29,297 nucleotides of DNA, taken from a virus. The stretch lies in IMG/VR virus record IMGVR_UViG_3300039043_000094, positions 1 to 29,297 of that record; one strand, written 5' to 3'. The position numbers and the translations under genes are program-made. A model generated the notes under the pieces. The model had not been told where the DNA came from. It saw only the letters and a list, made by a program, of their open reading frames with translations, and made no database searches. Shown in pieces: positions 8,550-25,020 of the stretch (positions are counted from its first letter, which is position 1; each line of letters starts with the position of its first letter).

Positions 8550-8554
8550 ATAAG

Positions 8555-8580
8555 TATAACGTAAAAAAAACAAAATTTAC
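8555..8580 (-). promoter_or_regulatory. Putative phage late promoter (site A)
   Basis: On the minus strand this reads GTAAA, 13 bases, ACGTTATA, then 5 bases to the ATG of the gene at 8549. The same bipartite arrangement occurs at four other gene starts (11807, 13564, 20716, 22451). The spacing between the boxes fits a -35/-10 pair, and the downstream box lies so close to the ATG that transcription would begin at or beside the start codon. It begins right after the T-tract of the 8593-8610 terminator. Confidence 0.6.
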
Positions 8581-8583
8581 TAT

Positions 8584-8610
8584 AAAAAAAAAACCACCTT
8601 AGTAGGTGGT
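8584..8610 (-). terminator. Intrinsic terminator after mini-gene 8634-8825
   Basis: On the minus strand the stem ACCACCT / AGGTGGT (7 bp, loop ACTA) is followed by ten T. It lies 24 bases after the stop of the 63-residue gene and just before promoter site A, so it separates the mini-gene from the portal operon. Confidence 0.85.
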
Positions 8611-8618
8611 GTTTCTTG
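8585..8618. repeat. 34-bp direct repeat, copy 1 (terminator)
   Basis: Identical to 8897-8930 over 34 bases: nine A, then the CCACCT hairpin, then GTGTTTCTTG. Both copies carry an intrinsic terminator after a mini-gene. The flanks differ, so this is a local copy of a terminator cassette rather than a longer duplication. Confidence 0.9.
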
Positions 8619-8633
8619 ATGTTAGTTTAGAGT

Positions 8634-8825
8634 TTATCTGTCAACTTCAATGACAAGTCGGTTGTACCATAAATCAGGATCTTTTTGTGCAAGTCTTAAA
8701 GTCATAAGGTCTATTTGGCTTTCTTTTTCTTTACCTAATCTATAGATTGCTGAAATTGCTCTTTCAATGGAATTTAAGAAGGATTGCTTCTTGTTTGGAT
8801 TTGATTTTGCTATTCTTATTGTCAT
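8634..8825 (-). CDS. Hypothetical 63-residue protein (inserted mini-gene)
   Basis: Basic, helical protein, MTIRIAKSNPNKKQSFLNSI, then ERAISAIYRLGKEKESQIDL and an end near WYNRLVIEVDR. There is no membrane segment or recognised domain. It is a one-gene unit: a host-type promoter (TTTG-N20-TATATTAG) lies 20-52 bases upstream of the ATG and an intrinsic terminator lies 24 bases after the stop. It sits between the tail-tube and portal operons. The layout, like that of three other mini-genes here, resembles a phage moron. Its promoter type suggests expression independent of the late genes. Function unknown. Confidence 0.65.
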   Translation of the reverse strand: MTIRIAKSNPNKKQSFLNSIERAISAIYRLGKEKESQIDLMTLRLAQKDPDLWYNRLVIEVDR

Positions 8826-8845
8826 ATTGTTGTTTTAAATTTAAG

Positions 8846-8877
8846 CTAATATAATAAACATTTGTTAATAAAACAAA
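8846..8877 (-). promoter_or_regulatory. Host-type (Bacteroidetes) promoter of mini-gene 8634-8825
   Basis: Minus strand: TTTG (8877-8874), exactly 20 bases, then TATATTAG (8853-8846). This fits the known Bacteroidetes pattern of a TTTG -33 box and a TAnnTTTG -7 box with one mismatch. The ATG lies 20 bases further on, after an A/T-rich leader. Confidence 0.55.
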
Positions 8878-8896
8878 TAATAAAAAAAATATTTAT

Positions 8897-8922
8897 AAAA
8901 AAAAACCACCTTAGTAGGTGGT
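8897..8922 (-). terminator. Intrinsic terminator after mini-gene 8948-9091
   Basis: Same 7-bp ACCACCT / AGGTGGT stem with loop ACTA and nine T on the minus strand. It ends the transcript of the 47-residue gene, 25 bases after its stop codon. Confidence 0.85.
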
Positions 8923-8930
8923 GTTTCTTG
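8897..8930. repeat. 34-bp direct repeat, copy 2 (terminator)
   Basis: Identical to 8585-8618, including the hairpin and the GTGTTTCTTG flank. It lies just after the 47-residue mini-gene. Confidence 0.9.
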
Positions 8931-8947
8931 TTGATAAATACAAGGTA

Positions 8948-9091
8948 TTACATTTTTATACATTCAGGAAATTTTGCTATTGCTTCTTTCCAAGTTATAC
9001 TGTATGCTACCACTTCTTCAAAATTTCTAACAATACCATTATCCCAATAATGCTTTTGGGTTTTAAGGTCTTTTATTACATTTTTTTTCAT
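8948..9091 (-). CDS. Hypothetical 47-residue protein (inserted mini-gene)
   Basis: Short protein MKKNVIKDLKTQKHYWDNGI, then VRNFEEVVAYSITWKEAIAK and FPECIKM. It is soluble, with no domain I recognise. It has its own transcription unit: a -7 box TATCTTTG at 9115-9122, a 23-base A/T leader ending CTTAAAATTAATATT before the ATG, and a terminator 25 bases after the stop. The leader is nearly the same as that of the mini-gene at 13688-13891. It lies between the tail-tube terminator and another mini-gene, so two such units stand in tandem here. Function unknown; a host-takeover or moron-type role is a guess. Confidence 0.6.
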   Translation of the reverse strand: MKKNVIKDLKTQKHYWDNGIVRNFEEVVAYSITWKEAIAKFPECIKM

Positions 9092-9114
9092 AATATTAAT
9101 TTTAAGTTTATATA

Positions 9115-9122
9115 CAAAGATA
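9115..9122 (-). promoter_or_regulatory. Host-type -7 box of mini-gene 8948-9091
   Basis: TATCTTTG on the minus strand is a perfect TAnnTTTG box of Bacteroidetes. A TTTG lies only 12 bases upstream instead of about 20, so the -33 element is weak or absent. Confidence 0.45.
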
Positions 9123-9150
9123 CGAAAAATTAAACAAATGGTTTTTTGTA

Positions 9151-9179
9151 AAAAAAAGAAGGGGCAAAAATACCCCTTC
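9151..9179 (-). terminator. Intrinsic terminator after tail-tube gene
   Basis: Minus strand: GAAGGGG / CCCCTTC stem (7 bp, loop TATTTTTG) followed by seven to eight T. It is 58 bases after the stop of the tail-tube gene and closes the head/tail-tube operon. Confidence 0.85.
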
Positions 9180-9236
9180 CAAATTTAAAACTAACCTATG
9201 AAAAAATTCATACACTACAAATGTACAAATATTTTA

Positions 9237-9776
9237 TTAAGCAGGACTAATAGGTGTCGCTGAAGCTACATCTGGCTCTGTACAGAAGAATGGTGGAAAT
9301 ACTTCACTAGCTGTTACTGTCAAAGTAAATCCTTGTAAATCTCCTGCTGCACTACCTGTAACGATAGTACCACCAGTTACTTCACCACCATTATCTCTAC
9401 CTACCAACATTCTCTTAGTAGTACCTGCACCATCTGGGTACATTTCTACTACATAATGTGCTCTACCCCTTGAGAGAAGTTTTATCTCTTCTTGTGTAGC
9501 TGCATCTAAGATTTGGAATGTAAGATTTAAAGTAGTTTCATAGAACGTAGTACCATTCTCTCTTGAAGAATTGATAACTGTTTCCATAGATGAGTTACCA
9601 CCTTTTAGTTCAAATTTAAAAAACTCAGCAGAGTTATCAGTAGGTAAAGTAATTGTACCACCACTATCTCCAAGAGCTTGTATAACTGCACTATAATCTA
9701 AAATGTAAACATTCTTTATTCCTGCATATGCTGGTTTACATCCAAGATTTCTTCCTTTTGTTATTGCACAACTCAT
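9237..9776 (-). CDS. Tail tube (major tail) protein
   Basis: 179 residues from the ATG at 9776 (MSCAITKGRNLGCKPAYAGI). An upstream GTG at 9821 would place the start inside a terminator-like hairpin, so the ATG is preferred. The opening MSCAITKGR plus G-C-K is common in tail-tube proteins of Bacteroidetes siphoviruses. The body is beta-rich, with ETTLNLTFQILDAATQEEIK, SRGRAHYVVEMYPDGAG and LVGRDNGGEVTGG, then GDLQGFTLTVTASE at the end, a pattern of the tail-tube fold. It should polymerise around the tape measure. It lies directly after the capsid gene but 4.3 kb away from the tape measure. The preceding hairpin may lower its expression relative to the capsid. Confidence 0.7.
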   Translation of the reverse strand: MSCAITKGRNLGCKPAYAGIKNVYILDYSAVIQALGDSGGTITLPTDNSAEFFKFELKGGNSSMETVINSSRENGTTFYETTLNLTFQILDAATQEEIKLLSRGRAHYVVEMYPDGAGTTKRMLVGRDNGGEVTGGTIVTGSAAGDLQGFTLTVTASEVFPPFFCTEPDVASATPISPA

Positions 9777-9780
9777 ATTT

Positions 9781-9823
9781 TTAAAAATAAAAAAGGGTGA
9801 GTAGGCACTCGGCTTACCCACCC
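9781..9823 (-). terminator. Terminator-like attenuator between capsid and tail-tube genes
   Basis: Minus strand: GGGTGGGTAAGC pairs with GCCTACTCACCC (12-bp stem with one G-U and one A-C mismatch, loop CGAGT), followed by TTTTTTATTTTT. It occupies most of the 69 bases between the two coding regions and ends a few bases before the ATG. It would let only part of the transcripts pass, giving more capsid than tail-tube mRNA, or protect the upstream mRNA 3' end. Confidence 0.7.
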
Positions 9824-9845
9824 CTTTGGTTAATAATTAAGTTTA

Positions 9846-10808
9846 TTATGTAGTCGCTGTAAAGTGCTTTGCATCATCAGAGATACCAACTTGTGTACCT
9901 GCTGTGAATCTAGCAATTACTCTTACATTTTGACTTCCATCTAAGTCTGCCATATCTAATAACTTAACTTCGTTGTGGTCTGATAACAAACCAGTACCAA
10001 AGAATAAGTTAGATTTCTGTGCAACGATTGCTCTGTTGCTTGACATACCTGCACATCTCTGTACTTTTAGTCCTTCAAAAGTCAAGTTTCTTTGGAAGTT
10101 AAACCAAAGTGAACTTTGACTGTCCACACCATCAGTAGGTGCAGAGAAAGCTCCACTTGATACAGAAGAAGAGAAACCACCCAATGCTCTAACATATGAT
10201 TGATATACATTGTTAGGAATGTAAATAGTTACATCATCTTTGCCATATACAGCAGAAGGAATGTTATCTACTACTTTGCCTAAGAAAGTAACTACGTTGC
10301 TAGAAGAGATAGTTGAGCTACCTACACCAGATAGTGCAGAAGAACTTAGTCTTTGCTCAAAACCTTCAAACAAGTTGTTTCCTGAAGCAGCAGAATCATC
10401 ACCACTCCAAATGTTGTTTTCCACACTTTCTGCAATCTTACCTGCAACATAACCTAAAATATAATCAGCTAGGTTGTCTGGTAGTTTGTCATAAGCAGAG
10501 TATCCCATTTGGATAGCTTCCCAATCTGAACGGAAATCAGCTTTACATAATTGTAAGTTGACTTGTAACTCTTTTGGTTCTAAGATTGATTCTCCTAAAG
10601 TTAAAGTTGAAGTAGGATCAAAGTCACAAGTAGCATCTTTGACTACATCATCTGTGCTAAGTGTTTTTAATACTTCTTTAAATTTAACATTAGGTTTGAT
10701 TGTAATCGCACCATCATTTAGTGTTTTACCTGAAGTAAGTGCAGCAGAAATATATTGCCCTGCAAATTCACCAGAGTAAGTTGTTGTTATTGAAGTTGTT
10801 GTACTCAT
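9846..10808 (-). CDS. Major capsid protein
   Basis: 320 residues. The segment ITIKPNVKFKEVLKTLSTDD, then VVKDATCDFDPTSTLTLGES and ILEPKELQVNLQLCKADFRS, followed by DWEAIQMGYSAYDKLPDNLA, is one I recognise from major capsid proteins of uncultured marine and flavobacterial phages. Later features are IAESVENNIWSGDD, the central DDVTIYIPNNVYQSYVRALG and a C-terminal LDGSQNVRVIARFTAGTQVG. An HK97-like fold is expected. The position fits: protease, scaffold, decoration-like gene, then this one, with a 19-bp gap before it. There is no promoter motif of its own; a purine-rich AATAAAGAA precedes the ATG. Its mRNA ends in the attenuator downstream. Confidence 0.85.
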   Translation of the reverse strand: MSTTTSITTTYSGEFAGQYISAALTSGKTLNDGAITIKPNVKFKEVLKTLSTDDVVKDATCDFDPTSTLTLGESILEPKELQVNLQLCKADFRSDWEAIQMGYSAYDKLPDNLADYILGYVAGKIAESVENNIWSGDDSAASGNNLFEGFEQRLSSSALSGVGSSTISSSNVVTFLGKVVDNIPSAVYGKDDVTIYIPNNVYQSYVRALGGFSSSVSSGAFSAPTDGVDSQSSLWFNFQRNLTFEGLKVQRCAGMSSNRAIVAQKSNLFFGTGLLSDHNEVKLLDMADLDGSQNVRVIARFTAGTQVGISDDAKHFTATT

Positions 10809-10827
10809 TTCTTTATTTTATTATTTA

Positions 10828-11244
10828 TTATATTTCTCCTACAGTTAATGAAGAACTTGCGTTTCCGTTTCCAAACAAGAAATAGTTTGTACCATCACTT
10901 GAAATTTCTACGAAATCACCGATGCTTTCTGCACCATCTTCAAATGTTACTTTGTCAACAGCATCTGCTTCTACAATCGCACCATTTACAATTACACCAC
11001 CATTGAGAATATCTCTATTGTCTGATGGAGTTTGTACCACTGTGTCTGTTGAAAAAGCTGCTGATACTACAAATTTGAATTTCAAACCTGCTGAAGGTGC
11101 AGGGAGCGTAACGGTGTACCCTGTACCAGATATTAAAAATGTTTTACCACTATCAGCACCTGTTAAAGTTACGTCTGCTGTAAGTGTTTCGTATTCATCC
11201 AAGATACGAATTACATCATTAGAAAATGTTGTTGTTGTTGCCAT
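10828..11244 (-). CDS. Capsid decoration-like protein
   Basis: 138 residues, Thr/Gly/Val-rich and beta-structured. Clear segments are DEYETLTADVTLTGADSGKT, GTGYTVTLPAPSAGLKFKFV, and near the end GDFVEISSDGTNYFLFGNGN. The phrase 'T-V-T-L-P-A-P-S-A-G-L-x-F-x-F' is frequent in small phage structural proteins that bind the capsid or fibres. It lies between scaffold and major capsid genes (start ATG overlaps the scaffold stop by one base), the usual place of a head decoration protein. Assignment rests on position and composition. Confidence 0.55.
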   Translation of the reverse strand: MATTTTFSNDVIRILDEYETLTADVTLTGADSGKTFLISGTGYTVTLPAPSAGLKFKFVVSAAFSTDTVVQTPSDNRDILNGGVIVNGAIVEADAVDKVTFEDGAESIGDFVEISSDGTNYFLFGNGNASSSLTVGEI

Positions 11245-11801
11245 TATTTATTAAATAGTTTATTGAACACAATGTCTTGTGTAGTTAATGTTTTATTTTG
11301 AGAAAGAAGATTAATTTTCTTTTTAGAAACTTCTTCAGGATTATGTGCTATTGGTTCTACAGCAGCAGATAATTCTTCTTTTACTTCTTCAGACATTTTC
11401 TCTTCTTTTTTGTGGTCCATCAATTTCTTGATGTGTTCCTTTAGCTCTACAGCTAAATTGTCCATTTCTTTCTTGAGTTCATCTTTTGTAACGTACTCAA
11501 GTTTTTCCTTTTTTTCTTCTTCGTGTTCAGCAGCTTGTACTGCTTCTACTTCTTCTTGTTCTTTTACCATAATTTCATCAATTATTCCTTCTTCTATTAT
11601 TGTTAAAGTTTTACCATCTTCCATTAAATACTCTCCTACAGGTAGTGCTACTCTCTCATCTTCTGTTTTTATAAACACTTCGTTACCTTTCTCAAAAGAC
11701 TCTGCTTCTAAGATTGTTCCGTTCTCTAATTTGAGTTCTGCTAGTTTCACTTCTTCACCTAAAAGAGATTTAATTTTAGATAACATTTGACTTGCTTTCA
11801 T
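11244..11801 (-). CDS. Scaffolding-like head assembly protein
   Basis: 185 residues, very rich in Glu and Lys. The N-terminal 70 residues are a small beta domain (MKASQMLSKIKSLLGEEVKL, then LENGTILEAESFEKGNEVFI and EDERVALPVGEYLMEDGKTL) that I know from head proteins upstream of the capsid gene in Bacteroidetes phages. Residues 75-160 are a long charged coiled coil (EEEKKEKLEYVTKDELKKEM and onward). The C-terminus LTTQDIVFNKLFNK could bind the capsid protein. The charged coiled coil between protease and capsid genes fits a scaffold that the protease removes. It has its own copy of the bipartite promoter motif (site E). Confidence 0.7.
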   Translation of the reverse strand: MKASQMLSKIKSLLGEEVKLAELKLENGTILEAESFEKGNEVFIKTEDERVALPVGEYLMEDGKTLTIIEEGIIDEIMVKEQEEVEAVQAAEHEEEKKEKLEYVTKDELKKEMDNLAVELKEHIKKLMDHKKEEKMSEEVKEELSAAVEPIAHNPEEVSKKKINLLSQNKTLTTQDIVFNKLFNK

Positions 11802-11806
11802 ATAAC

Positions 11807-11833
11807 TATAACTTACTTATTAATTTATTTTAC
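11807..11833 (-). promoter_or_regulatory. Putative phage late promoter (site E, weaker)
   Basis: Minus strand: GTAAA (11833-11829), 14 bases, AAGTTATA (11814-11807), 5 bases, ATG of the scaffold gene. It differs from the other sites by C to A in the second box and by one base of spacing. It would give extra transcription of scaffold, decoration and capsid genes. It overlaps the last codons region after the small 11841-11990 gene. Confidence 0.45.
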
Positions 11834-11840
11834 ATTTTCA

Positions 11841-11990
11841 TCAGGAAGTTTTTGTAATACTCCCTATTCCTTGCGCCCACAAACTACCATCACAACACTT
11901 TATGCTATAGGTGTGTTTGTCTTTGCATAAGCATCCCCTACGACTTCCCTTAGGGCTAGACCTACTTGGTGTTTTGTATCTATGTTTCAT
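11841..11990 (-). CDS. Small cysteine-rich protein, 49 residues
   Basis: Sequence opens MKHRYKTPSRSSPKGSRRGC and continues LCKDKHTYSIKCCDGSLWAQ, ending GIGSITKTS. The basic N-terminus followed by C20-L-C22 and C32-C33 suggests a small metal-binding knuckle. The pattern K-T-P-S-R-S-x-P-K-G-S-R-R-G-C-L-C is one I know from marine Bacteroidetes phages, always as a short uncharacterised gene. Its ATG overlaps the protease stop in an ATGA, so it is translationally coupled to the head protease. A head-associated role is inferred from position only. Confidence 0.75.
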   Translation of the reverse strand: MKHRYKTPSRSSPKGSRRGCLCKDKHTYSIKCCDGSLWAQGIGSITKTS

Positions 11991-13558
11991 TTGTCGCTTT
12001 TTGGATGTCCTTTAGGTAATAAGTCATTATCACCTGTATATTTTTTGTTTTGTGGTCTGCCGTTTTTTACTAAATATAAATATGCATTTACTCTTGCAAA
12101 TGCCCATTGACTTGGACTACTAACTCTTGGAGAGTGTGATACATTGAATGCACCAAGTCCCCTTTGAAATACAGCTTTTAGTGTGCCTACGTTTACACCA
12201 TATCCTAACTTGTCTTTATATCTTTCGTTAAAATCATCAGATTTCTTTTTTAAGGTAGCTTCATCTTGTTTTGATACTTTAGCACCTCTTGACGTGGAAG
12301 CATCTCCCTTAGCTGTTCCTTTACCCTTTGGAGATGGGTTAGGTGTTCTTGATTTAGGTGCTTTGGGAGATTTCTTAATTCCACCCCTTTCTCCTACTTC
12401 TGCCATTTTAACACATTTACCATTTTTCTTTTTATAACCTTTTGGACATTTATGGTAGGATAAATCTTTACTATGGAACTCACAAGGCATATACCAAGTT
12501 TGTCCTTCAAATTCGTGTTCGTGAAAACCTTCACAACCTAAATCTTTTGCAATCTTAAGTGCCATTTCTTTAGTAGAGTATGCTAGTCTATCCATAATAA
12601 TAGCATAATCTTCATTGACTTTTACATCTGCAAGTTCTAATTGTCCAAGTTCTTTTAGCTTTGCTTCTGCATATCTTTTACCTGCTTTACCACCCCAAAG
12701 TAAATAAGATATTGTACCACACGCTTCTGTGTCGCTTTCATCATAGTACTCTTCAGCTCTTGATAAAAAGGAATACATACGTTTTATTGTGTTTTCACTT
12801 ATTGGTTTGCCTTGTGCAAGTTGTTGTGCTCGTATCTTACCTACTTCTGTAGCACATTTGTTGTTTACTTTTTTATTTAAGTCTATACCTTTTTGTGCAT
12901 TGTTCTTTACTGCATCAGGATAATCACTATAGCTTTCTAGCTCTATGACTTTACCATCTTTGGTTCTACCATCTTGTCTTACAATTCTTCTAATCATAGA
13001 TAGTAGTTCTTCTGCTTCTTCTTCTTCAAAGTCGTTTAGAGATTCTTGTGGTCTTTCCATCTTATCTACAAAGTAACCTTCTATACTAAAACCTTTTACT
13101 TTGCCTGTCTTTACATAGTCATCCCAAACTTCTTTGTTGTTTACTTTAACTACTCCCATCCAAGTACCTACAGGTACATCAAGATTGTATTTACGAGATT
13201 TATCATTTAGTTCATCTTCTACGATCCAACTCTCAACTAAAGAAAGTCCTTGTAGTTTGTGATGGTGTTCAAGTGTGCTGTTGTTCTGATTACCACTTAT
13301 AAGATACATTTCAGATGCTTTTCTTACTGTTTCTTTTGAGAAGTATATGTAGTATTCTTCTTCACCCCTTTTTCTGTATATTGGTTTGTTTGGTACAAGC
13401 AAAGCACCTATAAGTATTTGTTTATCTACTTGTGCAAGTTGTATTTCTTCTGACTTAAGTGCTACAAAATCTTCTTCTATTGCAGGATTCTCTACAATTG
13501 ATATAGCTTCTATTCCTGATATTTCGTTATCATCAAGTACAAGTTCTATAATCTTCAT
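11987..13558 (-). CDS. Head maturation protease (XkdF-like) fused to extra domains
   Basis: 523 residues with several parts. Residues 1-165 match XkdF-like serine proteases (PF14550): VENPAIEEDFVAL, LIGALLVPNKPIYRK, EHHH at 97-100 with the likely catalytic His, and GFSIEGYF at 156-163 with the likely Ser158. Residues 215-300 (KNNAQKGIDLNKKVNNKCAT and the stretch to YLLWGGKAGKRYAEAKLKEL) are a helical domain often attached to such proteases. Residues 340-385 hold four Cys and several His (C342, C359, C371, C382), possibly zinc-binding. A Pro/Ser/Lys linker follows, and residues 445-520 resemble DUF5824 (LGYGVNVGTLKAVFQRGLGA, SPSQWAFARVNAYLYL). The protease should process the capsid and scaffold; roles of the added domains are unknown. 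It is the first gene after promoter site B. Confidence 0.8.
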   Translation of the reverse strand: MKIIELVLDDNEISGIEAISIVENPAIEEDFVALKSEEIQLAQVDKQILIGALLVPNKPIYRKRGEEEYYIYFSKETVRKASEMYLISGNQNNSTLEHHHKLQGLSLVESWIVEDELNDKSRKYNLDVPVGTWMGVVKVNNKEVWDDYVKTGKVKGFSIEGYFVDKMERPQESLNDFEEEEAEELLSMIRRIVRQDGRTKDGKVIELESYSDYPDAVKNNAQKGIDLNKKVNNKCATEVGKIRAQQLAQGKPISENTIKRMYSFLSRAEEYYDESDTEACGTISYLLWGGKAGKRYAEAKLKELGQLELADVKVNEDYAIIMDRLAYSTKEMALKIAKDLGCEGFHEHEFEGQTWYMPCEFHSKDLSYHKCPKGYKKKNGKCVKMAEVGERGGIKKSPKAPKSRTPNPSPKGKGTAKGDASTSRGAKVSKQDEATLKKKSDDFNERYKDKLGYGVNVGTLKAVFQRGLGAFNVSHSPRVSSPSQWAFARVNAYLYLVKNGRPQNKKYTGDNDLLPKGHPKSDK

Positions 13559-13563
13559 AATAG

Positions 13564-13589
13564 TATAACGTATTTGTAAAAGTTTTTAC
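13564..13589 (-). promoter_or_regulatory. Putative phage late promoter (site B)
   Basis: Minus strand: GTAAA (13589-13585), 13 bases, ACGTTATA (13571-13564), 5 bases, ATG of the protease gene. Box sequences and both spacings are the same as at site A. The GTAAA begins directly after the T-tract of the 13597-13616 terminator. Confidence 0.6.
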
Positions 13590-13616
13590 AAAAAAAAACC
13601 ACCTAAGAAGGTGGTT
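13590..13616 (-). terminator. Intrinsic terminator after mini-gene 13688-13891
   Basis: Minus strand: AACCACCT / AGGTGGTT (8-bp stem, loop TCTT) followed by a run of T. The stem is a close relative of the two identical terminators near 8.6 and 8.9 kb. It lies 72 bases after the mini-gene stop and abuts promoter site B. Confidence 0.85.
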
Positions 13617-13687
13617 ATAGAATTAATAATAAACAATTATCATTTTATAAATCTAGACTGAATAAACAAGTCTTTTATTTATTTTTG

Positions 13688-13891
13688 CTATTTTATATCA
13701 GTTTCTAAATCATCTATTCTTCGCATACTAGTTACAAAAATACCCTGTTTAGCCAGTTCTTTTTTAGCATTTTGTACCGTAAAACAATTCTCTAAAGTAA
13801 TTAAAACTCTAGCCCTTTTTTTATTATCTGAACTCGGCATTACAAAGCTAACGTCAAAAGTTGTAAAAAATCTATCGTCTTGTGTTTTCAT
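13688..13891 (-). CDS. Hypothetical 67-residue protein (inserted mini-gene)
   Basis: Soluble protein MKTQDDRFFTTFDVSFVMPS, then SDNKKRARVLITLENCFTVQ and NAKKELAKQGIFVTSMRRID, ending DLETDIK. The order strand - strand - helix (NAKKELAKQG) - strand suggests a small alpha/beta fold; no family is recognised. It stands alone between the tape measure and the protease. A strong host-type promoter (TTTG-N20-TATCTTGG) lies upstream, an A/T leader ending TTTAAAATTAATATT precedes the ATG, and there is a terminator downstream. This isolates it from the late genes around it, as in a moron. Confidence 0.65.
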   Translation of the reverse strand: MKTQDDRFFTTFDVSFVMPSSDNKKRARVLITLENCFTVQNAKKELAKQGIFVTSMRRIDDLETDIK

Positions 13892-13912
13892 AATATTAAT
13901 TTTAAATTTAGA

Positions 13913-13944
13913 CCAAGATAAATAAAATATTTGATATACACAAA
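13913..13944 (-). promoter_or_regulatory. Host-type (Bacteroidetes) promoter of mini-gene 13688-13891
   Basis: Minus strand: TTTG (13944-13941), exactly 20 bases, TATCTTGG (13920-13913). This is a near-consensus -33/-7 pair of Bacteroidetes. The ATG follows 21 bases after the -7 box, so the leader would be about 15 bases and is pure A/T. Confidence 0.65.
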
Positions 13945-13979
13945 TGTTAATAACTATACGAAGGTAATTTTATTCTAAT

Positions 13980-14043
13980 AGCACTTCTCTTAATTTTAAT
14001 ATATACATACTCTAGAAAAGAGAAAGTTGCTTAAACGCTTTCT
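13980..14043 (-). terminator. Possible terminator or structured region after tape measure
   Basis: The 180 bases between the tape measure stop and the mini-gene contain imperfect inverted repeats: AGAAAG (14021-14026) with CTTTCT (14038-14043), and a longer interrupted pairing of AAGAGAAAGTTGC (about 14018-14030) with GCACTTCTCTT (13981-13991). The stems are weak and no long T-tract follows, so termination here is uncertain. Confidence 0.3.
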
Positions 14044-14071
14044 AAATGCCTTTAAAATTGATTTTGTATTT

Positions 14072-15685: not shown

Positions 15686-15816
15686 CTCAATTCTTTTTTA
15701 ATCTTTCTACCTGCACCCATTAGTCCTTTAGGTAAGTGATATTTACCTTGTGCTATACGAATGTTTTCCGTTTCACCATTTGCTAGTTTTAGTAAATCTA
15801 AAATGTTTTGTATCAT
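15670..15816 (-). CDS. Hypothetical 48-residue basic protein
   Basis: Opens MIQNILDLLKLANGETENIR and continues IAQGKYHLPKGLMGAGRKIK, ending KELRWQKK. The N-terminal half is helical and the C-terminal third strongly basic. The ATG overlaps the stop of the upstream tail gene in an ATGA, and the 3' end runs 16 bp into the tape measure gene, so it fills the gap exactly as a coupled gene would. A small protein at this place could be a tail assembly factor; nothing in the sequence proves it. Confidence 0.65.
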   Translation of the reverse strand: MIQNILDLLKLANGETENIRIAQGKYHLPKGLMGAGRKIKKELRWQKK

Positions 15817-17855
15817 AAGTCATTAATTAATTCTAAGTTACTTTCACCTGTTAGTAAGTTTGTAGATATACTATTTATTTTATACTTGTTACCTGATATA
15901 ATAAATCTATCACCCAATCCAAAGTTTAGTAGGATTCTCTGTGGTAAATATGCTTTAAGTTTTGTTAATCTTTGTTTTGGATTGAATATACTATTTATGT
16001 AGCTTAAATAAAATTCAGTAAACAAATCATTAGTAAAAGTTGTATCTCCTGTCCATTCACTTTGCTCTCTGTTAAAATTTAACTGACTTGTATTTGTACC
16101 TGAGCTATTGGATGGACTATTGAATGGTAAGTTTACGTTAGTTATTTGTTTATGACTACTTGCAACATTATCAGAATTTACAACATCTACAAAACTTATA
16201 CCACCAGTATTAACTAACAAAGGATAAAATAATAAAGGTTCTCCTAAATATGCTTGTTGGTTACTATCTACGTTATATCCAATTTGAATATCTTTTTGTG
16301 TACCACCATTTACATCATTAAGTCTTTCAAACAACATATGTCCAAAAGGTGCTTCTACTTTATATAGTTGTCCTGCTATTTCAGTATCACCTGTAAATCT
16401 AAACTCTCCCCAATGTCTGTTATTTAATTCACCAAATTTATTTGCAAGAAAAGTTTTTGTGTCTTTGAATTTAAATATAAGTTCTCTATATGGTAAAGCT
16501 ACATCTACTTTACTATTCTTAACATCTACAAATTCTGTAATATCAAATGTATTTGTGCTTGTATAGAAAGCATCTAAGGTTTGTACTTTTATTGTACCAC
16601 TATCTTCAAAAGCAGTAAGGTTAAATAGCTTAAATAAACCTGTAAGAAAATCTATAATTTTTATATCTGGTATTTGTCTTGATACATTAAAAGTAAAAGA
16701 ACCACTTGTAGCAAATGTACCTGTTGAGAAATCTTTTGTAATTGTTGCTTCATCTGGTTCATCATAAGTTATTCTCCATACTATACTTGAAAAAGTTATA
16801 CTTGATGAAGCTGTAATAAAAACATTGTATGCACCATTACCCATATCAAAATCCCCTGTATGTGCATTAATTTCTTTTGCAGTAGCAGTAATACCTGTTT
16901 CACTAAACACACTTACACCATCTTTTAGTATTTCTATATCGTAAGAAGTAGAACCAGACCTAACCAAGTCTAATTCAAACTCTGTAAAAAATTCACTTTC
17001 AGTACCGATTATATTTAAAGTTGTTGTAGTTATTTGTATTTGTCTATCTGTAGTATCAGCAGTCCAACCATCTACCTGAGTTTCAAAATTACTTGTACTA
17101 CCTGATAAATCTTCTACTGCACCACTTTTTCTGTGTAACCACATAAACAAATGGTCCATCTCTGTAATACTTGTGTTTTTAAAAAAATCTGTACTAAATG
17201 TTAAACCAAAATCTGTTTCTATTTGTTCTATAATTTTATTTACTCTTATTGCATATTTTAATTCGTTAAACTTAACACCTTGTTCTTTACCAGTACCACT
17301 ACCTGCATAGTATAAGTTATCAGCATTATTAGCGTGTGAAGAGCTATCATAAAACAATCTTTGGGAGTGTGTAATCAAAGGTACTATGATGTGATTGCTA
17401 CTACTCTCTGCTGTAGTAAGTTTTGTTTCTATTGTGGAAGCATCATAATTTAAATCGTATGCTGTTAAATTTAAATCTGAAAGTTTAGAATCACCAAGTT
17501 TGTCTTTTAAATCTACAGTACTACCAAAGAATGTAATTTTATAAGTATCTGGTTTGTTGTTTTTTAAATCAACACCTTCAAGTTTTACTTTACCACTTCT
17601 AAAAGGTAGATAGTTTAGTTCTATAGTTGCATCTACTTTTTTTCTACCATCAAAACCACCTACTATATCAAACTTGTAGTAGTGTTTAAATATTTTATTA
17701 TTTGCTTTAGATGCAGGTACATTGAATGACTGACTAAAAGTTGTAAAAACTTTTTCAATGTCTTTTATGTTTTGTATGCTATCTGTAATAGTAACACTCT
17801 CATCTTTGAAAAGTTCTACTTGGTCTGTGCCAATAAACAACTGTATTACTTGCAT
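15813..17855 (-). CDS. Large tail protein, possibly tail hub/baseplate
   Basis: 680 residues. The N-terminal 110 residues contain SIQNIKDIEKVFTTFSQSFN, VPASKANNKIFKHYYKFDI and ELNYLPFRSGKVKLEGVDLK with TYKITFFG, a block I associate with a large tail protein of uncultured marine Bacteroidetes phages. The middle is beta-rich (Ser/Thr/Asp repeats around 250-360), and the C-terminus ends FGLGDRFIISGNKYKINSIS, then NLLTGESNLELINDL. The size and the final 'I-S-G-N-K-Y-K-I-N-S-I' segment recall hub-type proteins, but I see no catalytic domain. It starts one base inside the upstream stop. The tail role is well supported by neighbours; the hub assignment is tentative. Confidence 0.5.
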   Translation of the reverse strand: MQVIQLFIGTDQVELFKDESVTITDSIQNIKDIEKVFTTFSQSFNVPASKANNKIFKHYYKFDIVGGFDGRKKVDATIELNYLPFRSGKVKLEGVDLKNNKPDTYKITFFGSTVDLKDKLGDSKLSDLNLTAYDLNYDASTIETKLTTAESSSNHIIVPLITHSQRLFYDSSSHANNADNLYYAGSGTGKEQGVKFNELKYAIRVNKIIEQIETDFGLTFSTDFFKNTSITEMDHLFMWLHRKSGAVEDLSGSTSNFETQVDGWTADTTDRQIQITTTTLNIIGTESEFFTEFELDLVRSGSTSYDIEILKDGVSVFSETGITATAKEINAHTGDFDMGNGAYNVFITASSSITFSSIVWRITYDEPDEATITKDFSTGTFATSGSFTFNVSRQIPDIKIIDFLTGLFKLFNLTAFEDSGTIKVQTLDAFYTSTNTFDITEFVDVKNSKVDVALPYRELIFKFKDTKTFLANKFGELNNRHWGEFRFTGDTEIAGQLYKVEAPFGHMLFERLNDVNGGTQKDIQIGYNVDSNQQAYLGEPLLFYPLLVNTGGISFVDVVNSDNVASSHKQITNVNLPFNSPSNSSGTNTSQLNFNREQSEWTGDTTFTNDLFTEFYLSYINSIFNPKQRLTKLKAYLPQRILLNFGLGDRFIISGNKYKINSISTNLLTGESNLELINDL

Positions 17856-19030
17856 TATCTGATTGTGTTAATCTTATCAAAAGCATAATCAAATTCTATT
17901 GTGTATTGTACCAGTCTATCATTTAAAGTTGTCTTGTAAGTTACATTGCTTGTTTTTGGTATGATAGGTAGTACAAGTTCTCTGTCTGTAAGTTTTGTAA
18001 GAAATACTTGCTCTGATAACAAAAGTTGTTTTATCACTTCTTCATAGTCATCAGATAAATAACCAGTATTAAGTGTAATGCTTTCTTTTCCTAATTTATC
18101 ATATTGTGATACTTGTGGTTTGCTAACGACATATGAAGGAGTTTCTGTAGTAAAATCAACAAGATTAGATTTAAAAGTTTGTCCAGTAGTATTTAAGCTC
18201 TCTGTAGATTTCAAGCTAAAGTGCAAATCTTGTAAAGCACCAAACTTATTTACAAATGTAACTTTTATTGGAGTGTATTTTGTTTCTGGTTCTGTTTTTA
18301 TCTTTATGACTTCTGTACCATTTTCTGAATTGACATACAACTCATCTACAAGTCCATCATCTATATCACAAAGAAAATCATCAAGTAAAGTATTATCTTC
18401 TAATGTACCACCATCAGCTAGTACCCTTTCTCTATAGTTGTCTGTGTTATCACTACCTGATACTGTTATGTAATCTATTTGTGCATTTGTGTTTGTAGAA
18501 GTAGATACTGATTGTGTTCTTTTTACTGTGCCTTCAAATAAAAATGTTACAGAATCTGTTATGCCTGTATATACTGGTACTCTTACATTCTCATCATTTA
18601 GTCTAAATATAACTTGATTGGATTGTAAAGATCCTGTGTCTATTGTCTTTGCATTTGTAGGATTTGCACCATCTTCATAATATCCATATCCATCAAAAGC
18701 TACAAAACCATTTGTATTGTCAGGTTTGACAGTTGCTGTAGCAGAACCACTTGAAACTGTAGTACTAATAATAGCGTTTACCCAAACCACTTGACTATCA
18801 TAAGTACCATTGAATGTAATGTCTAAATAATCTCTTATAAGCTCTGCTACTTCAAAAACTATATATCCTGATGTAACTACACTTTTGGTTATTGTATATT
18901 TAGGATTCGCTACAGAAGCATTCGCTACAAATGTACCTGTGTATATATAAAGGTTGAGTGTAGCAGTTGCAATATTTGTTTGTGCTACTTTTAAATAAAA
19001 AGGACTTCTTACGTTTATCTTAGTTGCCAA
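17855..19030 (-). CDS. Tail protein, possibly distal-tail-like
   Basis: 391 residues, beta-rich. It begins MATKINVRSPFYLKVAQTNI, which I recognise from a conserved structural protein of marine Bacteroidetes phages, then has ATLNLYIYTGT and VFEVAELIRDYLDITFNG. The C-terminal part has YTPIKVTFVNKFGALQDLHF, SLKSTESLNTTGQTFKSNLV and VFLTKLTDRELVLPIIPKTS, then YTIEFDYAFDKINTIR. The start codon is TTG at 19030, inside the last codons of the preceding gene; there is no alternative ATG that keeps the conserved N-terminus. Order (terminator, gp10-like, this gene, the 680-residue protein, tape measure) supports a tail role. Confidence 0.55.
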   Translation of the reverse strand: MATKINVRSPFYLKVAQTNIATATLNLYIYTGTFVANASVANPKYTITKSVVTSGYIVFEVAELIRDYLDITFNGTYDSQVVWVNAIISTTVSSGSATATVKPDNTNGFVAFDGYGYYEDGANPTNAKTIDTGSLQSNQVIFRLNDENVRVPVYTGITDSVTFLFEGTVKRTQSVSTSTNTNAQIDYITVSGSDNTDNYRERVLADGGTLEDNTLLDDFLCDIDDGLVDELYVNSENGTEVIKIKTEPETKYTPIKVTFVNKFGALQDLHFSLKSTESLNTTGQTFKSNLVDFTTETPSYVVSKPQVSQYDKLGKESITLNTGYLSDDYEEVIKQLLLSEQVFLTKLTDRELVLPIIPKTSNVTYKTTLNDRLVQYTIEFDYAFDKINTIR

Positions 19031-19526
19031 TTGTACTACTTCTTAAAAATTCTTCTAAATCTAATCTATATGCTTTTACCATATCTTCTGGTAATTTATC
19101 AAATGCTTGTTTAAAACTCTTAGTAAAGAAGTTACTAGGTTTTATACCTTTATTGTATATGCTTCTTGCTAACAAGTATTGTAAACTCTTACGTTTTATA
19201 AATCTACCTTGTGCATCTCTTGTACCTTTTATGTTTCTTCTTACCATCCACTTATCAAGAGCTTTGGGTGGTGGCATTTTATCTTTGTAACTAAATGGTG
19301 TATTGTATTTACGTTTCTTACCACTTACACCCCTGTCTTGATATATACCATATTCTTCCATAAAGAAGTTTAGTATAAATGCAACAGCAGAAGTTGTAAG
19401 GTCATATCTCAAACTATTATACAAATCTTTACTAGCGTTTTTCTTACCTTTTGTAAGTCGTGTTCTGGATTGTTGTATTACACGCTTTGCAAATTTGTTT
19501 AATATTTCTTCAGTATTGTTCAACAT
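19020..19526 (-). CDS. Tail completion / head-tail joining protein, gp10-like
   Basis: 168 basic residues. Early helix MLNNTEEILNKFAKRVIQQS is followed by ARTRLTKGKKNASKDLYNSL-type sequence. A central block EEYGIYQDRGVSGKKRKYNT with PFSYKDKMPPPKALDKWMVR follows, and then LARSIYNKGIKPSNFFTKSF. The 'Y-G-x-Y-x-D-R-G' to 'I-x-x-x-G-I-x-P-(S)-x-F-F' layout is that of HK97 gp10-like tail completion proteins, and the length fits. It sits between the tail terminator-like and tail genes with 6-11 bp overlaps. It probably joins tail and head or caps the tube. Confidence 0.65.
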   Translation of the reverse strand: MLNNTEEILNKFAKRVIQQSRTRLTKGKKNASKDLYNSLRYDLTTSAVAFILNFFMEEYGIYQDRGVSGKKRKYNTPFSYKDKMPPPKALDKWMVRRNIKGTRDAQGRFIKRKSLQYLLARSIYNKGIKPSNFFTKSFKQAFDKLPEDMVKAYRLDLEEFLRSSTIGN

Positions 19527-19990
19527 AAGTACAAGTCGTTGTGTATTGTTAAATCAAATGTAGATGCCCAACCACCAAGTTGGTTTTCAAATCTATCATA
19601 AAAAGGTTCACAGCTTGGTGTACCTAACAATTGATATTTGTCAAAGTATGGTGTGCCTTGTCTTAGCAATCCAAACAATCTATTCTGTACAGCTAGTTGT
19701 GTGTTCAGTACATCTTGTTCATTGTTGTTTCCTACAAATATGTCTGTTACTTCGCTTTTGCTCAAATCTATAATATCCATAGAAAGTATTGTAATGTTGA
19801 ATGTAAGTATTTGCTCTGCTATTGTAACATTGTTTATTATGATATGTGTCAAAGGGAATATGGTTTGTTTAGATAAATCTATTTCTGTCAAATCACCTGT
19901 GGTTACTGTGTTTACATTCTCATCTAACAAGAGTGTATCTTTAAGTGTTTGTGTTACTAAGTAATATGCTCTTACACCTTGATTAGCCAT
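19520..19990 (-). CDS. Tail terminator-like protein
   Basis: 156 residues of mixed alpha/beta. It begins MANQGVRAYYLVTQTLKDTL, then has a strand pattern FPLTHIIINNVTIAEQILTF and NITILSMDIIDLSK. A helix LNTQLAVQNRLFGLLRQG follows, and the C-terminal strand reads NQLGGWASTFDLTIHNDLYL. The pattern helix - strand - strand - helix (with N-R-L/T in the helix) - strand fits gpU/terminator-like proteins that stop tail growth. It overlaps the chaperone frame-B gene by 8 bp and the gp10-like gene by 7 bp. The terminator call is from fold pattern and neighbours. Confidence 0.55.
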   Translation of the reverse strand: MANQGVRAYYLVTQTLKDTLLLDENVNTVTTGDLTEIDLSKQTIFPLTHIIINNVTIAEQILTFNITILSMDIIDLSKSEVTDIFVGNNNEQDVLNTQLAVQNRLFGLLRQGTPYFDKYQLLGTPSCEPFYDRFENQLGGWASTFDLTIHNDLYLC

Positions 19991-20210
19991 TTCTTCTAAT
20001 TCTTTTTGTTTCTATTTCGTTTTTCTCTTTCATAAATTCTAAAGCATATAGACATTCGTGTACGTTTAATTTAGTGATATCTTTAAATCGTGTAATATCT
20101 CCGTTAGCGAGTCCAAATACTGATTGATACCAACCCCATTTTTGTCCAAAGGTTGCAACTCTTGAAAGGTTATCCCCTGTCTGTGTGTAGAGTGAATCAT
20201 AACTTGACAT
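19983..20210 (-). CDS. Tail assembly chaperone, frameshift extension (GT-like)
   Basis: 75 residues if read from its own ATG (MSSYDSLYTQTGDNLSRVAT). Its frame is reached from the upstream chaperone gene by a -1 shift at a run of nine T (20230-20238). The shifted frame is open from there through this ATG, so a 242-residue fusion (160 + 82) is expected. The extension has KWGWYQSVFGLANGDITRFK and NVHECLYALEFMKEKNEIE, a helical chaperone-like tail that I associate with this family. GGGAAGGAG just before the ATG might allow internal start as well. The pair corresponds to gpG/gpGT of lambda, which load tail tube on the tape measure. Confidence 0.65.
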   Translation of the reverse strand: MSSYDSLYTQTGDNLSRVATFGQKWGWYQSVFGLANGDITRFKDITKLNVHECLYALEFMKEKNEIETKRIRRNG

Positions 20211-20710
20211 AACTCCTTCCCTAAATTGTAAAAAAAAAGTATAGAACTCATAACTACGGATAACGGCATTTCCTTGTATTTAAGAGCGTTTCTCGGCTCG
20301 TATGGTACTATATTATATTTATCAGAATATCTGCTCTGTATCGGTCTGTAAAGCACAGCCATTGCTTTCTCTATGTTATCCCAATCACCTAAAAACGTAT
20401 CTATGTCTATATATTCACCAAAAGTCATCTCATCAAGATTGGGTATAAATCCATATTCTTTTTTACCAAGTTTGAATCTTTGTATAAGTGTAGGTGATTC
20501 TTTAAACATCAAAGAAATCTTTTCTACGATCCTACTTACATCTGATGCTTTGATATATCTTGCTACTTTGTCTGATACATTACAAAAGATTGAAATCATC
20601 TTAAGTGCAAGTTGATTGTCTGATAAATCTTCAGGTAGCTTTAAGTACTCTTGGTATTGTCCTAAAGTTATATCGCTTAATGATGTAGGTACTCTCAATT
20701 CATACTTCAT
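20066..20710 (-). CDS. Tail assembly chaperone (G-like)
   Basis: 214 residues, helical. It begins MKYELRVPTSLSDITLGQYQ, then EYLKLPEDLSDNQLALKMIS and IFCNVSDKVARYIKASDVSR. A block KLGKKEYGFIPNLDEMTFGE, YIDIDTFLGDWDNIEKAMAV and LYRPI follows. This layout (a 'ITLGQYQEYL' start, then F-I-P-x-L-D-x-M-T-x-G-E-Y-I-D) is one I know from tail chaperone genes of Bacteroidetes siphoviruses. Two products are expected: this one and the -1 frameshift fusion that shares residues 1-160. It opens the tail operon after promoter site C. It is 4.4 kb from the tape measure rather than next to it. Confidence 0.65.
   Translation of the reverse strand: MKYELRVPTSLSDITLGQYQEYLKLPEDLSDNQLALKMISIFCNVSDKVARYIKASDVSRIVEKISLMFKESPTLIQRFKLGKKEYGFIPNLDEMTFGEYIDIDTFLGDWDNIEKAMAVLYRPIQSRYSDKYNIVPYEPRNALKYKEMPLSVVMSSILFFYNLGKELCQVMIHSTHRQGITFQELQPLDKNGVGINQYLDSLTEILHDLKISLN
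20229..20239 (-). other. Probable -1 programmed frameshift site
   Basis: Minus strand reads C-T9-A. In the chaperone frame this is CTT TTT TTT TAC, which contains the canonical slippery heptamer T TTT TTT. A -1 shift gives TTA CAA TTT AGG GAA and stays open into the overlapping ORF down to 19983. Position, direction (-1) and gene family all agree with tail chaperone frameshifting. Confidence 0.7.
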
Positions 20711-20715
20711 AATAA

Positions 20716-20742
20716 TATAACGTATAAATCAAATGTTTTTAG
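20716..20742 (-). promoter_or_regulatory. Putative phage late promoter (site C)
   Basis: Minus strand: CTAAA(A) (20742-20737), about 13-14 bases, ACGTTATA (20723-20716), 5 bases, ATG of the chaperone gene. It begins a few bases after the T-tract of the 20753-20768 terminator, the same arrangement as at sites A and B. Confidence 0.6.
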
Positions 20743-20745
20743 AAA

Positions 20746-20768
20746 CAAAAAATCCTACCGAAGTAGGA
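20746..20768 (-). terminator. Intrinsic terminator after mini-gene 20783-20905
   Basis: Minus strand: TCCTAC / GTAGGA stem (6 bp) with a TTCG tetraloop, followed by TTTTTTG. The stem starts 14 bases after the mini-gene stop codon and separates it from the tail operon. Confidence 0.85.
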
Positions 20769-20782
20769 CTTTAAGTTGATAC

Positions 20783-20905
20783 TTATTTTATCTTGAGAAA
20801 ATCTCTCTTGATTACTTGTTCGTATTCTTTACTAAAAACAAAATCAAAGTATTCTTTTTTAGTAATTGCATTCCCTGTCAAAGGGTGTACATAGTTTTTT
20901 TCCAT
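20783..20905 (-). CDS. Hypothetical 40-residue protein (inserted mini-gene)
   Basis: Reads MEKNYVHPLTGNAITKKEYF, then DFVFSKEYEQVIKRDFLKIK. It is soluble, charged and probably helical at the C-terminus; not recognised. It follows terminase by 50 bases. The A/T leader CTTTAAAATTAATTAAT before the ATG matches the leader of two other mini-genes, and a -7-like TATATTTA lies 23 bases before the ATG. A terminator follows. It is the fourth one-gene unit placed between virion operons. Confidence 0.6.
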   Translation of the reverse strand: MEKNYVHPLTGNAITKKEYFDFVFSKEYEQVIKRDFLKIK

Positions 20906-20928
20906 ATTAATTAATTTTAAAGTTCAAG

Positions 20929-20936
20929 TAAATATA
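20929..20936 (-). promoter_or_regulatory. Host-type -7-like box of mini-gene 20783-20905
   Basis: TATATTTA on the minus strand resembles TAnnTTTG with one mismatch, at the same distance from the ATG as at the other mini-genes. No TTTG lies about 20 bases upstream, so this is a weak call supported mainly by the shared leader. Confidence 0.3.
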
Positions 20937-20955
20937 CATAATTTTTAATAAACAC

Positions 20956-22107
20956 TTAATGTATGTAATATTTACCGAAGTTAGGTTTTGATAGTATGGA
21001 GTAAACACTATAACGAGCTGCATCAGTTGTGTGGTTGTTTGCATCTTCTGGTATGTTTGTAACTCTACCTGCTCTATCTTCTTTCCATTTGTAACTTCTA
21101 AATTCTTTTATCATATTCTCACTATCTTTTGTGATGTGTAGTTTATATCTTTTTAGTAAGTCAATACCTGCAAGTACTGAATTACTGCCTTTGTAAGATT
21201 TTAAAACTTTGTGTCCGTATCTTCTAAGCTGTTCTATGATTTCTGGTCTAGCTGAATCTGCATATGTCATACCTTGCAAATCTACACCTTTTAGATATTG
21301 GTGTATATCTTCTGTTGTCATTTTTTGTCTATACAATAATTCTTTGAAATATAAGTTGTGTTCTTTCTTGTAAGTAGCAACAAGAGTTGTAGGATCATTG
21401 AAACCAAAGTCCATACCATAAGCTACCAAGAAAGCATCTTCAGGTATTGTTTCACACTCTGTGTATTTGAATATAGTTGCTTTGCTTGTAGCTCTTCTAC
21501 CAAGTCCGTATATTGTCCAGTACGTTTCATCTGTTTCTCTTAGTAATTCTATTTCTTTTCTTATGCTCTCATCTATGAATGGATTGTCTAAATAAGTTGT
21601 GTAGTGTATCTCTACATCATCTCTTTGTTCTAACTTATCCCATATCCAATGAAACTCATCAGAAGGGTTTAAATCACCTATTACTTTCTCTGATGTCCTA
21701 AATAGTAATTGATTCATATCTTCATATGTAAGATTGTTCATCTCGTTGCAGAATAGTAAATCCCTTTTTCTTCCCCTTACTTTCTGTGGTTGGTCTAAAG
21801 ATATAAACTCTATAAGATTGCTATCTAGCTTGTACTCGTGATTGCTTTTGTTGTGTTTCTCTTCATCATACAAATCTAACTTGTTAAGTATCTCTAAGAA
21901 ATCTCGCATAACTGTGGCTCTTAGTGCAGGAAATGTTTTCCTACAAATAGTTATTATTTTATCTTCGTTGTGCTGACAATAGTGCAGTATAATCCAAAGC
22001 AAGATATTGTATGTCTTACCACTTCTTGTACCACCTACTTCTAATGTTATTTTCTTATTGGAGTGTAGTAAGTGTTTATATACTTTATTGACTTGAAGAG
22101 TTGTCAA
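20956..22107 (-). CDS. terL: Terminase large subunit
   Basis: 383 residues; the ATP-driven packaging motor and nuclease. Walker A is GGTRSGKT (25-32) and Walker B is LLFCNE (117-122), with the adjacent coupling segment GDLNPSDEFHWIW (144-156). The RNase H-type nuclease acids are D233 (YGMDFGFNDPT), D284 (TYADSARPEI) and D362 (HTTDAARYSVY). It belongs to the PBSX/Terminase_3-like group. The start is TTG at 22107: a stop codon directly precedes it in this frame and no ATG lies before Walker A. It overlaps the small subunit by 23 bp. It is the last gene before the first inserted mini-gene. Confidence 0.93.
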   Translation of the reverse strand: MTTLQVNKVYKHLLHSNKKITLEVGGTRSGKTYNILLWIILHYCQHNEDKIITICRKTFPALRATVMRDFLEILNKLDLYDEEKHNKSNHEYKLDSNLIEFISLDQPQKVRGRKRDLLFCNEMNNLTYEDMNQLLFRTSEKVIGDLNPSDEFHWIWDKLEQRDDVEIHYTTYLDNPFIDESIRKEIELLRETDETYWTIYGLGRRATSKATIFKYTECETIPEDAFLVAYGMDFGFNDPTTLVATYKKEHNLYFKELLYRQKMTTEDIHQYLKGVDLQGMTYADSARPEIIEQLRRYGHKVLKSYKGSNSVLAGIDLLKRYKLHITKDSENMIKEFRSYKWKEDRAGRVTNIPEDANNHTTDAARYSVYSILSKPNFGKYYIH

Positions 22108-22444
22108 TTATTTCTACTTTAAAACTTTTCTTTTTGGTGTCGTGTTTTATTTCACGCTTTGTACCATTTAGTCTATGAGCTTCATCATCGTCACTTATAA
22201 GTTTCATTAGTCCTATTTGTAATGTTGGGTTGTCTGACTTGTACCACTTCTTTCTCATACTTACTTTCATATTAGAACGATTCTTGTATAATTCGCTTTT
22301 TATGTCTTCTAATTCTTCTAATTTATGATTATAGAAGGTAGCTTGTGAGAATGGTACATAAGCAAATATATCTCCAATAAATAGTAGATTGTTTTCTTTT
22401 ATTGCTTTGATGGATTGTTCTTTTAGTTCTTCTGTCTTGTACAT
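22085..22444 (-). CDS. terS: Terminase small subunit
   Basis: 119 residues. The N-terminal helix-turn-helix-like part reads MYKTEELKEQSIKAIKENNL, LFIGDIFAYVPFSQATFYNH, which would bind the packaging site. It is followed by MKVSMRKKWYKSDNPTLQIG and LMKLISDDDEAHRLNGTKRE, a pattern I know from small terminases of Bacteroidetes phages. It overlaps terL, as expected. It is the first gene after promoter site D, so packaging genes open the late region. Recognition is from family pattern plus position. Confidence 0.82.
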   Translation of the reverse strand: MYKTEELKEQSIKAIKENNLLFIGDIFAYVPFSQATFYNHKLEELEDIKSELYKNRSNMKVSMRKKWYKSDNPTLQIGLMKLISDDDEAHRLNGTKREIKHDTKKKSFKVEIIDNSSSQ

Positions 22445-22450
22445 TATAAG

Positions 22451-22476
22451 TATAACGTTTATTAATCTGTATTTTC
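22451..22476 (-). promoter_or_regulatory. Putative phage late promoter (site D)
   Basis: Minus strand: GAAAA (22476-22472), 13 bases, ACGTTATA (22458-22451), 6 bases, ATG of the small terminase. The upstream box lies in the last codons of the DnaA-like gene. It marks the border between early and late regions. Confidence 0.6.
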
Positions 22477-24925: not shown

Positions 24926-25020
24926 TTTTTAAATTTTTTATATATTCTGTAAAAGCTGTAACCAACATAACCTAATATCAACAAGGCAAAACATATTGGA
25001 CAAGGGTGTATAACTATCAT
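24922..25020 (-). CDS. 32-residue membrane microprotein with CPxC
   Basis: Reads MIVIHPCPICFALLILGYVG, then YSFYRIYKKFKK. One hydrophobic helix (about residues 9-25) follows a CPIC motif and ends with a basic patch, so an N-out or inner-membrane microprotein is likely. It is coupled on both sides by ATGA overlaps: its ATG overlaps the sigma factor stop and its TGA overlaps the next ATG. This double coupling is the main reason to accept so short a gene. Role unknown; an envelope-directed host-takeover factor is one possibility. Confidence 0.55.
   Translation of the reverse strand: MIVIHPCPICFALLILGYVGYSFYRIYKKFKK

Follow-up and report, generated by a model that had tools for sequence, protein, structure and literature searches.

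In phage T4, a sigma-like phage protein, gp55, serves the late genes; its promoters read TATAAATA, a sliding clamp and a coactivator are needed, and the genes are leadered. The closest precedents for the system discussed here are two other phage sigmas, 7-11 gp47 and phiEco32 gp36, whose hosts are unrelated but whose systems are of this same kind. The late promoters of 7-11 gp47 (SaPh711_gp47) have the form GTAAtg-(16)-aCTA and the middle and late promoters of phiEco32 gp36 the form tAATGTAtA, with start sites 6-9 base pairs (bp) away for both (PMC8948821). We analyzed a window of 29,297 bases, the whole stretch taken from IMG/VR virus record IMGVR_UViG_3300039043_000094, whose host-phylum setting is that of a marine Bacteroidota phage and in which five late-gene starts on the minus strand are preceded by a shared motif. 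On the best reading of these sequences, the five motifs are conserved late-gene promoters whose mRNA is expected to begin at the start codon, and it is likely that an extracytoplasmic function (ECF)-like sigma factor encoded by the phage directs the host RNA polymerase to them, giving mostly leaderless mRNA.

As in 7-11 and phiEco32, a phage-encoded sigma is found together with a conserved motif ahead of late genes. With 7-11 gp47 the window shares a divergent phage sigma, with a putative region 4 in the window protein, bipartite late-gene promoters and, presumably, the use of host core RNA polymerase. However, phage 7-11 infects Salmonella, its -10 box is different and a leaderless geometry has not been reported for it. 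The single strong box of phiEco32 gp36, with transcription starting 6-8 bp downstream, matches the spacing seen here, but this sigma has neither a region 4 nor a -35 element, its host and box are different, and leaderless mRNA has not been reported for it. T4 gp55 is likewise a sigma-like phage protein for late genes, although its box and fold class are different.

The original prediction described an upstream A-rich box and a second box close to the ATG at starts 22444, 20710, 13558, 11801 and 8549, and all five sites do read this way. Late promoter A (8547..8580) heads the portal block, with GTAAA at 8580-8576, ACGTTATA at 8562-8555 and the ATG at 8549; promoter B (13556..13589) heads the head-maturation protease gene, with GTAAA at 13589-13585, ACGTTATA at 13571-13564 and the ATG at 13558; and promoter C (20708..20742) heads the tail block, with CTAAA at 20742-20738, ACGTTATA at 20723-20716 and the ATG at 20710. 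Promoter D (22442..22476; GAAAA 22476-22472, ACGTTATA 22458-22451, ATG 22444) stands at the head of the packaging genes, and promoter E (11799..11833; GTAAA 11833-11829, AAGTTATA 11814-11807, ATG 11801) at the head of the scaffold-like and capsid genes. Four of the five second boxes are thus exactly ACGTTATA, as had been stated, with promoter E the exception. The two boxes are separated by N13/14, and the second box lies 5 nucleotides (nt) from the ATG at four sites and 6 nt from it at promoter D. The full pattern, [GC][TA]AAA-N12..15-A[CA]GTTATA-N4..7-ATG, occurs five times in the window, every time at one of the named starts, whereas 200 dinucleotide shuffles averaged 0.03 occurrences and at most gave 1. 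Taken by itself, ACGTTATA was rejected as evidence, since it is not enriched in the window (36 one-mismatch matches, 32.9 expected); three further exact copies lie on the plus strand. A sigma-70 promoter scan gave fewer matches than in shuffles, with one weak match, over site B only. The Bacteroidota primary promoter, with the consensus TTTG/TAHHTTTG (PMC6847099), belongs to the same host phylum, but no host-type TAnnTTTG box was found directly upstream of the five starts, which also agrees with the original prediction.

About 120 loci were collected by searches with the window's sigma and terminase proteins. At orthologous starts the box is kept with few exceptions, the numbers of aligned loci being 60 for 20710, 62 for 22444, 13 for 13558, 10 for 11801 and 2 for 8549. 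Across whole contigs, CGTTATA-N(4-5)-ATG matched 51 times, in 17 of 19 near-relative contigs and always on a single, coding strand per contig, while its reversed control gave one match and five distant terminase relatives gave none. Listing every CGTTATA and AGTTATA in twelve contigs showed the box recurring at the same five late genes, 5 nt from the ATG, and most complete relatives have the same five sites, each ahead of a late gene. The 18-base consensus TACGTTATAYTTATATGA matched 77 times in 2.9 million viral contigs, with 73 matches in this phage group, mostly at homologs of 20710, 8549 or 11801; because the pattern includes the ATG, this is a measure of group specificity and not an unbiased count. 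The motif is therefore neither as common inside genes as ahead of starts nor lost from related phages, two of the ways in which the original prediction could have failed, because relatives keep it ahead of the same late genes and never on the non-coding strand. Of the proposed pair of boxes, the upstream one is weak. In it only AAA, 15-17 nt before CGTTATA, is moderately conserved across relatives, at about 0.8-0.9 bit per position as opposed to 1.4-2.9 for the CGTTATA core, and no part of the motif is less secure than this -35 element.

The promoter reading made from the window is supported, but it made no mention of the sigma gene, nor of the same layout with other boxes across a large phage group. 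The open reading frame (ORF) at 25514-25017 (25017..25514, minus strand, 165 amino acids, TTG start) encodes a divergent two-domain ECF-like sigma factor with a sigma2-like and a sigma4-like helical domain. It matches phrog_1740 (RNA polymerase sigma factor) with an E-value of 1.2e-4 and, weakly and below Pfam's cut-off, Sigma70_r2 (E 0.0027). Among 28 relatives, phrog_1740 was found in 20 and Sigma70_r2 in 11 (best 1.3e-8), and the family profile matched SigH (2e-7), SigL (4e-6) and SigW (2.4e-5) in PDB. The sigma2 domain is thus homologous to Sigma70_r2, as is characteristic of ECF-type (group 4) sigmas. An AlphaFold2 model of the window sigma has two helical domains with an uncertain link (mean predicted local distance difference test score, pLDDT, of 82; predicted template modelling score, pTM, of 0.43). 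Foldseek matches to this model were almost all ECF sigmas, with SigE of M. tuberculosis first, and those from the viral library include proteins named Sigma70-ECF from uncultured phages. Whole-chain template modelling scores reached only 0.3-0.4, a result of the different placement of the domains. ECF-type sigmas also have a sigma4 domain and lack sigma1.1 and sigma3; the model of the window sigma has a C-terminal helical domain, and Foldseek aligned region 4 of sigmaE (2h27) at 1.5 Å over 61 columns, but with an E-value of 0.71, and Sigma70_r4/r4_2 was found in only 1-2 of the 28 family members. A direct search with the window sigma in isolate phages and bacterial genomes gave no match. The -10 specificity loop of ECF sigmas lies between the sigma2 helices, and in our sigma alignment the stretch between these helices has a long insertion in the TCTATTATATA lineage.

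The same arrangement is present in an isolate, Nonlabens phage P12024S, whose portal is 39% identical to that of the window and which encodes, at the corresponding early place, a Sigma-70 region 2 protein (P12024S_33) that is 28% identical to the window sigma over 92 residues. Seven of its starts, at 179, 3031, 5412, 21280, 23961, 25201 and 26802, are preceded by AAAAC-N16/17-CGTTA-N7-ATG (N6 at 21280). Bacterial ECF promoters have a comparable layout, for example TGAAAC-N16-CGTA for B. subtilis SigW, and the P12024S sites share it, with about 16-17 nt between an AAC-type -35 and a CGT-type -10. The CGTTATA box of the window group conforms to such a -10, but the -35 there is weak and closer. 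The likeness extends to the protein, as the sigma family profile matches SigW (structure 5wuq); unlike bacterial ECF promoters, however, the sites are phage-borne, have an AT-rich extended -10 and would start transcription at the ATG, and no anti-sigma was found, although no search was aimed at one. P12024S (L125) also has short antisense ORFs back to back with late promoters (2750-2980, 5123-5365, 23811-23927 and 24839-25135 on the minus strand), and its intergenic regions with late promoters contain TATATTTG-like host boxes on the opposite strand.

Relatives with a P12024S-type terminase number more than 600 loci, and most of the 80 that were fetched have a sigma homolog just upstream of the terminase. 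We surveyed 156 loci for a box at the gene after the terminase, and most lineages have one near its ATG, namely ACGTTATA, ACGTTTATA, TTGTTTATA, TTGTTTTTA, TTCTATTATATA, GTATTATATA, AGTTATATA or others. Sigma-bearing lineages mostly have a lineage-specific box, the first base of which is usually 12 nt before the ATG. P12024S and a few others have no box at this gene, but have one at neighbouring late genes. Both sigma and box are present in two Bacteroidota-binned contigs from bacterial-genome records (L301, L302), whereas prophages of Hallella, Sphingobacterium and Muribaculaceae that are terminase relatives (L305-L309) have neither the sigma nor a box at the gene after the terminase. Among distant terminase relatives, L112 and L114 have remote sigma matches on the other strand and L115 has a weak match. 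It is an even call whether this large, mostly uncultivated group of Bacteroidota phages relies on an ECF-like sigma of its own for the late programme, with some ten sigma-box pairs that have co-diverged while keeping the same leaderless geometry. Two further contigs that carry this Bacteroidota-type phage with sigma and boxes are binned as a Euryarchaeota archaeon (L299) and as Pseudooceanicola (L300), which are probably binning errors.

In the course of infection that we propose, early genes, the sigma gene among them, would be expressed first, presumably by means of a host sigma. The sigma of the phage would then bind host core RNA polymerase and target the five sites, each combining an A-rich -35 element that is weak with a strong -10 element, CGTTATA, that starts at -12 relative to the A of the ATG, and transcription would start at or within about 2 nt of this A. 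With such a start, most late operons would be leaderless. The data bear directly on the motif, its conservation, its coding-strand and late-gene specificity, its independence of the ATG, the homology of the sigma and the near-constant geometry across lineages. From these we infer that the window sigma probably reads the five sites, and the early-to-late timing, early sigma expression and leaderless translation would follow the same scheme. The 5' ends are predicted to lie at the ATG from the spacing: transcription by phiEco32 gp36 starts 6-8 bp beyond its element (PMC8948821), and the same spacing here would put the start at the ATG. The start could instead lie several nt up- or downstream of the A, yielding mRNAs with short leaders, an alternative that we consider unlikely. 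Start-site distances vary between 6 and 9 bp for 7-11 gp47 and phiEco32 gp36 (PMC8948821), so the start could shift by a few nt, and the spacing to the ATG varies slightly as well (3-6). However, five different box families (CGTTATA+5, CGTTA(ACT)TA+4, CGTTTAT+5, TGTTTATA+4 and TATTATATA+3) all begin 12 nt before the ATG, which suggests that the position of the transcription start is coupled to that of the ATG.

ECF sigmas are numerous in Bacteroidota, and it is conceivable, if rather improbable, that host RNA polymerase reads the late promoters by means of a primary or ECF sigma of the host, possibly helped by a phage activator, while the phage sigma serves another purpose. The link between the phage sigma and the sites, which is drawn from sequence comparison, leaves some room for this. 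However, the host primary consensus is absent from the five sites, sigma and box occur together and are jointly absent from related prophages, and the box differs among phage lineages, its class following the sigma clade. On a tree of 37 sigma proteins, the box classes require 15 changes (minimum 12), compared with 25.3 when labels are shuffled. For 30 shared taxa, 12 changes are required on the sigma tree and 13 on the terminase tree (minimum 11). Two loci, L195 and L196, combine a P12024S-type terminase with a window-clade sigma, and they share their box, GTATTATATA, with L100, where a sigma of that clade goes with a window-type terminase. Together with the difference of 12 to 13 changes, small though it is, this pattern supports a functional tie between sigma and box.

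We regard it as very improbable that the second box serves translation initiation, as a Kozak-like signal or an AT-rich leader, and is no promoter element. The fixed distance to the ATG would fit such a signal, as would the use of A at -3 and -6 by Flavobacterium (PMC6847099). However, the box is found at operon heads only and is absent from internal starts, it contains a conserved C and G, and A is at -3 in only three of the five sites. Its distance to the ATG at site D is 6 nt in the window, 3 nt in G004 and 37 nt in G001, G002 and G005, where ACGTTATACTTATAAG is kept although no ATG is close by. In G004 (L132:15658), promoter D is separated from the usual first packaging gene by an extra gene that starts 3 nt after CGTTATA. 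The 247 kilobases of the TCTATTATATA lineage have 45 copies of the box on the coding strand and one on the other; 25 have an ORF start no more than 9 nt away, and most of the rest, which make up about half of these boxes, are 14-33 nt upstream of the next ATG. Because the box survives in a clade with the ATG 37 nt away, we read it as a signal for transcription and not translation, and the Kozak-like signal was rejected. The clade with the box kept ahead of a 37-nt leader before the packaging gene at site D comprises L066, L126-L129 and L134-L135. A promoter for a phage-encoded, T7-like single-subunit RNA polymerase, which a sharp, phage-specific box ahead of late genes might recall, is the least probable reading of all and was rejected, as the largest ORF of the window (680 amino acids, tail block) is too small, although the contig may be incomplete, and a sigma gene is present instead.

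Several points weigh against late promoters read by the phage sigma and giving leaderless mRNA. Shared descent alone could yield a correlation of sigma and box and explains most of the pattern, the difference between 12 and 13 changes being small, and the CGTTATA box is found in L179 and L189 despite very divergent sigmas. The -35 element is weak, and its position and sequence vary among lineages. Region 4 of the sigma is hardly detectable by Pfam, and the predicted placement of the two domains in the model is poor. Finally, some boxes are 14-37 nt from the next ATG, at site D in one clade and for about half of the TCTATTATATA boxes, so leaderlessness is not universal.

The original prediction knew of no such promoter in Bacteroidota phages, and we found no description of one in the open-access literature, most subscription papers being outside the search; the open-access literature also gave no match for phage ECF sigmas in Bacteroidota phages. 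For an abundant group of marine phages, the switch to late genes can be predicted from sequence alone, a function can be proposed for a hypothetical gene beside the terminase in hundreds of contigs, and the lineages offer a natural series of sigma-promoter pairs for the study of -10 recognition. Of the transcripts predicted in F. johnsoniae, 87% have a leader of more than 10 nt, and leaderless ones are uncommon (PMC6847099), and leaderless signals were reported in only 1 of 37 Bacteroidetes/Chlorobi genomes by a method that covered sigma-70-like boxes only (PMC3160421). If the leaderless geometry is true, the late mRNAs would bypass normal leader-dependent initiation, which raises the testable question of whether the ribosomes of Bacteroidota, which do without Shine-Dalgarno signals and seldom encounter leaderless mRNA, translate phage mRNAs with AUG at their very start.

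The recognisable genes of the window are on the minus strand, and the earlier gene assignments stand: packaging from 22444, with the terminase next, tail from 20710, head protease from 13558, scaffold-like protein and capsid from 11801, and portal from 8549. The terminase large subunit (20956..22107) lies within the promoter D transcript, and the homolog of the first gene of promoter C (20066..20710) follows the terminase in most lineages examined. The head maturation protease (Peptidase_S78_2; 11987..13558) is the first gene of promoter B and the portal protein (6373..8178) the second of promoter A. Intrinsic terminators at 8593..8610, 13597..13616 and 20749..20772, also on the minus strand, lie just upstream of promoters A, B and C, and would insulate these three of the five promoters. 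Small minus-strand ORFs (9091-8951, 8825-8634, 13891-13688 and 20905-20786) are located just upstream of the same promoters; three of them have in common a leader resembling TTAAAATTAAT(ATT)ATG, and one carries a host-type TATCTTTG box at 9122. They resemble cassettes within the late region that are expressed separately and closed by terminators. Two adjacent N6/N4 DNA methyltransferase genes (PF01555; 26892-25511, minus strand) immediately precede the sigma gene, and a thioredoxin-like protein (PF00085; 1349-939, minus strand) is encoded between the M15 peptidase and the tail-end genes.

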